The notes beneath the pieces are model-generated. The model saw nothing but the letters and a program-made list of their open reading frames with translations, was not told where the DNA came from and made no database searches. Positions 7,668-9,425 of a stretch of DNA of 64,000 bases are shown one piece after another (position 1 is the first letter of the stretch; each line of letters begins with the position of its first letter). The position numbers and the translations under genes were made by a program. This DNA comes from Actinomycetota bacterium (lineage in GTDB: Bacteria; Actinomycetota; Acidimicrobiia; Acidimicrobiales; Ilumatobacteraceae): NCBI GenBank assembly GCA_005788815.1, contig SYAZ01000068.1, positions 1 through 64,000 of the forward strand, written 5' to 3'.

Positions 7668-7735
7668 CGCCGGCCTAAATCGTCAGCAGTTACAAATTTC
7701 AAACCACTTTTTGCGAACCCTTTTTGGCGTCCCAG

Positions 7736-7840
7736 TGGAGCCCGATTGGGGAGTTGTGGGGGCAGTGGGGAACAAAGTGGAGATAAATGGGTCAAGGTGG
7801 TTGACAGTGGGGCAAAGTGGGGATTAAGGTGACCCGTGGG
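7736..7840 (+). promoter_or_regulatory. array of about ten MraZ-type boxes (TGGG/TGGA/TGGT) with about 10-bp periodicity
   Basis: TGG at 7736, 7747, 7757, 7766, 7778, 7788, 7798, 7808, 7818, 7837; exact 10-bp spacing from 7778 to 7818; immediately upstream of mraZ. Confidence 0.8.
7801..7830 (+). promoter_or_regulatory. candidate SigA/HrdB-type promoter for the mra operon
   Basis: TTGACA (7801-7806), 18-bp spacer, TAAGGT (7825-7830); embedded in the box array. Confidence 0.5.
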
Positions 7841-7872
7841 AGGAGCGGAGTTCCCCCGGGAAGGCGGAGACT

Positions 7873-8289
7873 GTGTTTGTCGGAGTGCACGAGCGACAAC
7901 TCGACCCGAAAGGTCGTCTCGCTCTCCCTGCTGCATTTCGTCCCCGTCTCGAGCCGCGCTGTTACTTGGCCTTTGGCCGCGACAAGTGCATCGATGTTTT
8001 GACTGCTGAGGCATTTGAGCAGGTCGCTCAAGAGATGCTGGAGAAGGTTCGTAACGGCGAGATGTCGCTCAATGAGCGCCGTGCGCTTGCAGCCAACACC
8101 ATTGAAGTAACTATCGACGCCCAGGGTCGCATCAATATTGATGAAAAATTGCGTTCATACGCCGGAGTAGTGCTTGGCGAAAAAGTGGTCGTTGCCGGTT
8201 CTTTTGATCGCATTGAAATTTGGGAGCCCGTTCGTCACGAACGCAACATCAGCGTGGGCACCGAACAAATCGCTGGAGCGGGCGCGTGA
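7873..8289 (+). CDS. mraZ: transcriptional regulator MraZ
   Basis: 'FVGVHERQLDPKGRLALPAAFR', 'IEVTIDAQGRINIDEKLRSYAG'; first gene of dcw cluster. Confidence 0.95.
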   Translation: MFVGVHERQLDPKGRLALPAAFRPRLEPRCYLAFGRDKCIDVLTAEAFEQVAQEMLEKVRNGEMSLNERRALAANTIEVTIDAQGRINIDEKLRSYAGVVLGEKVVVAGSFDRIEIWEPVRHERNISVGTEQIAGAGA

Positions 8290-8322
8290 TCGTCAATGCT
8301 TCGCACGTTTCTTCAATCAGCC

Positions 8323-8460
8323 AGTGGTCGTCGGCCTTTGGCAGTCTCCCGGATGGCACGGTGGTTAGCTCCAACTCCGCCCGCTACCATCGCGCACGCA
8401 CCGGGGATACATCCGGGCGGCATTTGCTGTCCGGGAGGCTGCCATCGGCCGACGATTGTT
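8323..8460 (+). ncRNA. structured rsmH (mraW) leader RNA candidate
   Basis: 8323-8336 pairs with 8447-8460, 8339-8352 with 8431-8444, 8353-8358 with 8425-8430 (34 pairs incl. G-U, one 2x2 internal loop); ends 14 nt before rsmH ATG. Confidence 0.75.
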
Positions 8461-8474
8461 CGTCGGGTGCAATC

Positions 8475-9425
8475 ATGAATGGCGCTTTCGAGCATGTCTC
8501 AGTGATGTTGCAAGAAGTCTGTGATGTGTTTGCAGACACCAATGAAGGAGTCTTTCTCGACGCCACTTTGGGTGGAGCGGGCCACAGTGCTGCGCTACTC
8601 GAGCGGCATCCACAATTGCGGCTCTTGGGGATCGACCAAGACGACACGGCTCTCGCTGCTGCTTCGCAAGTTCTGACAACTGCCGGTTACGGCGAGCGCG
8701 TGGCCCTCCGACGCGCCCGTTTTGATTCGGTGGCTTCCATCGTGGCCGAGGAGGGTATTGGTTCGTTGGCCGGTGCCCTCTTCGACCTCGGTGTCTCTTC
8801 GCCGCAATTTGATGTTGCCGAGCGTGGTTTCTCCTATCGATTTGATGCACCACTAGATATGCGAATGGACCAATCGCAGTCGTTCAGTGCAGACAATGTC
8901 GTCAATGAATACAACGTCATTGAGTTAACAAAAATGTTGCGTCGAAATGCAGACGAACGACATGCGCATCGCATTGCCCATGCCATCGTTGCTGCTCGAC
9001 CTATTCGATCCACAATGCAATTAAGTGATGTGGTGAGCGCAGCGATTCCTGCACCGGCACGACGTCGCGGTGGTCATCCTGCAAAGCGGTCTTTTCAAGC
9101 TATTCGCATTGAAGTCAACTCTGAACTGGCAATTCTTCCTGAAGCATTGCGCGCCACGATTGCGGCTCTTGCGCCCGGAGCGCGTCTCGCGGTATTGACA
9201 TATCACTCTGGTGAAGATCGGATTGTGAAGTCGGTTATGCGCTCTGCAGAAACCGGGAATTGTTCCTGTCCATCGCATCTTCCATGTGCTTGTGGTGCAG
9301 TGCGTTCGGTGCGTCGCATACGCGCTTCACGCGATGCAAGTACCGCAGAGCGTGAGAGTAATCCGCGTTCTACGTCGGCTCGTTTGCGGGTTGTTGAGAA
9401 ACTCAACGAAGGTGATGTGGAGTAG
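8475..9425 (+). CDS. rsmH: 16S rRNA (cytosine(1402)-N(4))-methyltransferase
   Basis: 'FEHVSVMLQEVCDVF', 'FLDATLGGAGHS', 'GALFDLGVSSPQFD', 'PAKRSFQAIRIEVN'; start at ATG 8475, not ORF start 8220. Confidence 0.95.
   Translation: MNGAFEHVSVMLQEVCDVFADTNEGVFLDATLGGAGHSAALLERHPQLRLLGIDQDDTALAAASQVLTTAGYGERVALRRARFDSVASIVAEEGIGSLAGALFDLGVSSPQFDVAERGFSYRFDAPLDMRMDQSQSFSADNVVNEYNVIELTKMLRRNADERHAHRIAHAIVAARPIRSTMQLSDVVSAAIPAPARRRGGHPAKRSFQAIRIEVNSELAILPEALRATIAALAPGARLAVLTYHSGEDRIVKSVMRSAETGNCSCPSHLPCACGAVRSVRRIRASRDASTAERESNPRSTSARLRVVEKLNEGDVE

Follow-up and report, generated by a model that had tools for sequence, protein, structure and literature searches.

The hairpin between mraZ and rsmH in the window (the whole stretch of 64,000 nucleotides that was analysed) is a real, evolutionarily conserved structured RNA whose fold, judged from its pattern of sequence change, is under selection. 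We consider it probable that this RNA is a cis-acting mRNA element controlling the translation of rsmH, the gene for an enzyme that makes fine adjustments to the ribosome, and that in the window's genus it has taken on a derived, in-frame form. The source genome of the window is 1.53 Mb in size and 68% complete, and the window's relatives are Ilumatobacteraceae (acIV-type, mostly freshwater) of the class Acidimicrobiia. The features of the locus are as follows.

7873–8289, + strand: mraZ, an open reading frame matching Pfam PF02381 (MraZ), with stop codon TGA at 8287–8289
8275–8278, + strand: Shine-Dalgarno GGAG, 7 nt 5′ of GTG 8286 and present in 29 of 29 genus genomes, with the caveat for this role that it doubles as coding sequence for the MraZ C-terminus
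8286–9425, + strand: rsmH in its most probable translated form (379 amino acids), GTG 8286 overlapping the mraZ stop (GTGA)
8326–8358, + strand: 5′ strand of P1, from fold and covariation, containing the anti-Shine-Dalgarno-like CUCCC
8359–8369, + strand: 5′ side of P2 (CGGUGG and AGC)
8370–8382, + strand: P2 loop, UCCAACUCCGCCC (13 nt)
8383–8392, + strand: 3′ side of P2 (GCU and CCAUCG)
8401–8416, + strand: P3 hairpin, 8401–8405 pairing with 8412–8416 around the loop GAUACA; missing from distant families
8425–8457, + strand: 3′ strand of P1, containing GGGAGG (8433–8438)
8475–9425, + strand: rsmH body, ATG 8475 being the start taken in the preliminary description of this DNA

Fold of the element in the window

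The preliminary description had claimed a long imperfect helix between the two genes and proposed folding the region against shuffled controls. RNAfold recovers both arms where they had been placed, pairing 8326–8336 with 8447–8457 and, after a 2x2 internal loop, 8339–8358 with 8425–8444; an inverted repeat of 31 nt (8328–8358 and 8425–8455, 84% complementarity) was detected independently. The 191 nt from 8290 to 8480 have a minimum free energy of −95.7 kcal/mol versus −69.0 ± 4.4 kcal/mol for dinucleotide shuffles (z = −6.02), and none of 200 shuffles is as good.

The interior is no unstructured switch region; it forms the hairpins P2 and P3. Within P2, positions 8359–8364 pair with 8387–8392 and 8367–8369 with 8383–8385, i.e., the CGGTGG segment for which pairing with CCGCCCG had been claimed pairs with CCATCG instead. 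The other half of the proposed switch, CCGCCCG with CGGGCGG, pairs perfectly over 7 nt in the window but lacks conservation: its pairing level is 78.4% versus 78.4% in shuffles, and none of its pairs covaries. We therefore reject a switch between two mutually exclusive conserved helices.

Conservation and covariation of the structure

Alignment A1 comprises 43 sequences, namely the rsmH leaders from the genus and from named Acidimicrobiia contigs. Covariation in homologous leaders, which had been suggested as a check on the helix, is found: of 41 pairs, 26 have two-sided changes, and 94.6% of cells are paired. Compensated cells number 218, versus 75 ± 7 after shuffling (0 of 500 shuffles); slid controls reach no more than 33. 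In P1 and P2, G·U pairs are about five-fold more frequent than A·C mismatches (167 versus 33), an excess which indicates that the functional molecule is RNA, of the sense (+) strand. In addition, the silent-site difference in the window's genus is nine times less in the motif than in the RsmH body (0.057 versus 0.506), and these near-frozen silent sites argue that selection acts on the letters of the RNA, not on codons. When 70 distinct leaders were folded singly, those shown formed P1 and mostly the same P2 with its 13-nt loop, the exceptions to the standard P2 being odd folds such as those of L088 and L126.

Distribution among the Acidimicrobiia

A covariance model built from A1, with E-values that are rough owing to a short calibration, matches 201 of 296 Acidimicrobiia genomes (about two thirds), at one place per genome; where a second match was seen, it was the same hairpin read on its other strand or a fragment lying where a contig ends. 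Fourteen of the 297 genomes in an Actinomycetota set are positive, all of them Acidimicrobiia and none from outside the class, where assignment to the class follows the organism names given for the matched contigs together with the kinship labels that the genome search supplied. The genomic position is constant: each of the 39 examined matches, which were chosen so as to cover the most distant families, falls in the mraZ–rsmH interval, and no other gene was found to have the element. The constant position, the covariation and the excess of G·U over A·C together bear out the earlier view of a structured RNA tied to rsmH.

In most clades that lack the element, the gap separating mraZ from rsmH is short (−4 to 79 nt). 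When the model was run on these loci, it recovered the element only in L106 and L128, whose loops are slightly different. P3 is present in most of the nearer families. A form of about 100 nt, with the same P2 loop and no P3, is seen in distant Acidimicrobiia (L165, L174, L175, L181, L182, L186, L187 and L189–L192), which suggests that P3 was gained or lost within the class. We note that contigs titled 'MAG: Bifidobacterium breve' (L051, L053, L063, L065 and L069) have mraZ–rsmH loci of the Acidimicrobiia type, with the element present in L051, L053, L063 and L069; the organism names on these contigs look wrong.

Comparison with the mraW RNA

The mraW RNA motif (RF01746) was described from Actinomycetales by Weinberg et al. 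2010 (PMC2864571); its Corynebacterium diphtheriae example is located 5′ of the site where mraW transcription begins (PMC5784534). The two RNAs share the slot between mraZ and mraW/rsmH, a similar size, a long imperfect hairpin and an actinomycetotal host. However, the apical sequences differ (CACUUCCCC in the mraW RNA, ACUCCGCCCG here), and the mraW RNA is a single hairpin, whereas the present element is a P1/P2/P3 junction. The apical loop of the mraW RNA, ACUUCCCC, stands on a CCUGgcg/cgcCAGG stem, whereas the P2 loop, ACUCCGCCC, is closed by an AGC/GCU stem. The start codon lies outside the mraW hairpin in L041 and L045.

A search with RF01746 gave no match in the window, either at gathering (50 bits) or at E ≤ 10, and none in the sampled Acidimicrobiia genomes; nine further loci that carry the element were negative at E ≤ 1. 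Conversely, the model of the element gave no match to mraW RNAs (best E 0.11, off-site). The preliminary description had allowed for either a relative of the mraW RNA or a distinct leader; these searches support the distinct leader. On the searches and on its predicted structure and apical sequence, the element should not be filed as mraW RNA, although the two may do the same job. At a relaxed threshold, other Rfam families yielded only chance hairpin matches far below gathering (MIR918 and MIR3454), which were discarded, and no description of the element was found in Rfam 15 or in the literature searched, nor any for the Acidimicrobiia. The element adds a conserved, class-wide candidate regulatory RNA heading the dcw (division and cell-wall) cluster, where previously there was only the mraW RNA of other Actinomycetota. 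The presence of a second, unrelated-looking RNA in the mraZ–rsmH slot suggests a wider RNA control of rsmH in the phylum.

P1 and the start of rsmH

Of 37 anchored distant loci, 24 have within the 3′ strand of P1 a start codon, predicted from sequence alone, that is in frame with rsmH. Just 5′ of these start codons stands mostly GGGGG, GAGGG or GGAGG (for example GGGAGGCUGCUGAUGAGC and GGGGGGCUGGCAAUGGACC), and the P1 strand opposite this Shine-Dalgarno is a matching CUCCC/CCCCC. By sequence and fold, a covarying helix predicted to hold both signals is present in these 24 distant loci, and the window's genus has only the relic GGGAGG. With a Shine-Dalgarno and a start codon predicted inside it, P1 has the layout of a translation-repressing helix and should repress rsmH translation. 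GGGAGG (8433–8438) in P1 of the window is what remains there of an rsmH Shine-Dalgarno, which in other families persists beside the start codon.

The window's genus and some other families have their rsmH start outside P1, a point against translational control through P1. In those other families it has shifted downstream, by tens of nucleotides to about 100, with the element retained. Three loci with a shifted start (L086, L074 and L138) keep in P1 a Shine-Dalgarno and an AUG out of the rsmH frame, e.g., GAGGGGCUGCCGAUGAGC, and a short upstream open reading frame could begin at this AUG.

Riboswitches that sequester the ribosome-binding site, and RNA thermometers, likewise have these two signals within a helix, as is predicted here for many families though not for the window's genus. 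Unlike these, the element has no known ligand or heat-labile helix, and the sole alternative pairing tested is unconserved. In the mechanism that we propose, P1 would keep ribosomes off rsmH, and a binder of the P2 loop would either stabilise or open P1.

The P2 loop and the C1402 site of 16S rRNA

The 13-nt P2 loop carries a nearly invariant ACUCCGCCCG (8374–8383 in the window), a conservation that within A1 is partly a product of selection, since its seeds were chosen by a pattern including the loop sequence, and that is less affected in the later model hits. Among the distant matches, the loop core CUCCGC occurs in 38 of 39 and ACUCCGCCCG in most, with the variants CUCCGCCCU and CUCCGCCAAC in some distant families. 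ACUCCGCCCG is identical in nine of ten positions to ACACCGCCCG, the 16S rRNA sequence around C1402, and C8380 is the equivalent of C1402. Across the whole 16S rRNA, the best ungapped match of ACTCCGCCCGC is ACACCGCCCGT at C1402 (9 of 11, the unique top). The 16S sequences compared are those of Acidimicrobiia relatives, as the assembly of the window's genome yielded no 16S of its own. Composition-matched shuffles equal the loop–16S match in 2–5% of cases, which puts it only modestly beyond chance. The idea that the mraW RNA is a C1402 mimic too was dropped, its loop having its best 16S matches elsewhere. In the window, AGCGGGCG (8277–8284), which overlaps the Shine-Dalgarno assigned to the putative GTG start, could pair without mismatch over 8 nt with CGCCCGCU (8378–8385); this pairing with the P2 loop is lost in L027–L038 and hence was treated as chance.

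RsmH makes N4-methyl-C1402 in 16S rRNA (PMC5053481). Because the P2 loop resembles this methylation site, RsmH itself is, tentatively, the foremost single candidate binder and would act by negative feedback, and autoregulation of RsmH through the P2 loop is suggested by the likeness. In its full form, a possible but speculative reading is that an rRNA methyltransferase controls itself by way of a leader that copies its 16S target (CCGCCCG, with C1402) in an exposed loop while burying the ribosome-binding site, and that one freshwater genus has absorbed this leader in frame into rsmH. Purified RsmH is reported to be active on assembled 30S subunits and not on protein-free 16S rRNA (PMC5053481), and METTL15, an RsmH homologue, binds h44 RNA at about 1–2 µM without sequence specificity (PMC10828496); both points weaken the idea of a C1402 mimic. 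Our literature search found no paper on RsmH autoregulation. The nearest working comparison is with the autogenous leaders of ribosomal proteins, some of them rRNA-mimicking (PMC7247131, PMC4137082), which likewise combine a structured leader, a buried ribosome-binding site, an rRNA-like loop and a downstream gene product that acts on rRNA, whereas here the product is an rRNA methyltransferase and its binding is putative. If the loop is a decoy site for RsmH, ribosome maturation would be linked to expression of the dcw cluster, and there would be a testable reason for the presence of an rRNA methyltransferase in a cell-division operon.

We give roughly even chances to the alternative that the same RNA and the same control of the ribosome-binding site answer to a regulator other than RsmH, i.e., a ribosomal protein, an assembly factor, a small molecule (such as S-adenosylmethionine), temperature, or the translation of mraZ, in which case ribosomes on mraZ would open P1. 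An invariant loop over a helix that buries the ribosome-binding site suits any ligand-controlled leader, the reported need of RsmH for an assembled 30S subunit points the same way, and mraZ lies directly 5′ in every locus checked. Against such a regulator stand the top match of the loop in the whole 16S rRNA, which is the RsmH target site, and the restriction of the element to this one gene and one place per genome.

It is unlikely that P1 serves mainly RNase III processing or mRNA stability, separating mraZ from the remaining dcw transcript. With at least 27 pairs, P1 is long enough for RNase III, and a search of the mraZ–rsmH gap for an intrinsic terminator or a sigma-70-type promoter found neither; however, such a role leaves unexplained both the invariant P2 loop and the placement of Shine-Dalgarno and start codon inside P1 of many families.

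In-frame capture in the window's genus

In the window's genus, the RNA appears, from the state of the reading frame, to have become part of rsmH, lengthening its N-terminal end by 63 codons. In all 29 genus genomes with intact context, the GTG overlaps the mraZ stop (GTGA) and the RsmH frame is free of stops from there to the RsmH body, whereas the other two frames contain stops in 29 and 28 of the 29. The ten lengths between element and rsmH, and the three between mraZ and element, are congruent modulo 3 within each set, for which the chance under free insertion and deletion is about 6e-6. The open frame and these lengths seemingly place the RNA within the present rsmH coding region. The start codon of P1 has been lost in the genus, and ATG 8475, previously taken as the rsmH start, is without a Shine-Dalgarno, with no start codon kept at that site across the genus. 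Translation probably begins elsewhere than at ATG 8475, and the region is very probably read as part of rsmH. Residues 1–63 of the extended RsmH correspond to the RNA element together with its spacers, and the Pfam MraW domain (PF01795) starts at residue 68. In the spacers, amino-acid change is nearly unconstrained (pN/pS about 0.8), which indicates that the frame is kept and not the peptide.

The plain reading is that an ancestral leader burying the ribosome-binding site has turned into rsmH coding sequence with its RNA fold still under selection. The genus would thereby offer an unusual natural example of a regulatory leader that acquired a coding role and kept its RNA constraint. Ribosomes finishing mraZ would probably start again at GTG 8286, on its stop codon, and translate the element in frame, and an RNA so placed would act on elongating or re-initiating ribosomes.

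A purely protein-coding origin of the conservation, as the peptide of an RsmH N-terminal extension, is highly improbable. The open frame in 29 of 29 genomes and the insertions and deletions in multiples of three agree with it, but in other families the element is found in each of the three possible frames with respect to rsmH (23, 13 and 7 loci), the motif's silent sites are nearly frozen while the spacer pN/pS is about 0.8, and the pairs carry compensatory changes; the frame variation and the silent sites led us to reject it. A DNA-level palindrome (a protein-binding site, an inserted mobile element or a repeat) would account for a long inverted repeat and is scarcely credible for an element that always lies at the same locus and has G·U five times as frequently as A·C, and a mobile element or repeat is ruled out by the single copy of the hairpin in the genome.

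Finally, the region 5′ of mraZ (7734–7841 in the window) is rich in GTGGGG/GTGGAG repeats, several of them spaced by about 10 nt (7756, 7765 and 7777; 7807 and 7817), which we take to resemble the direct repeats bound by MraZ in its own promoter.
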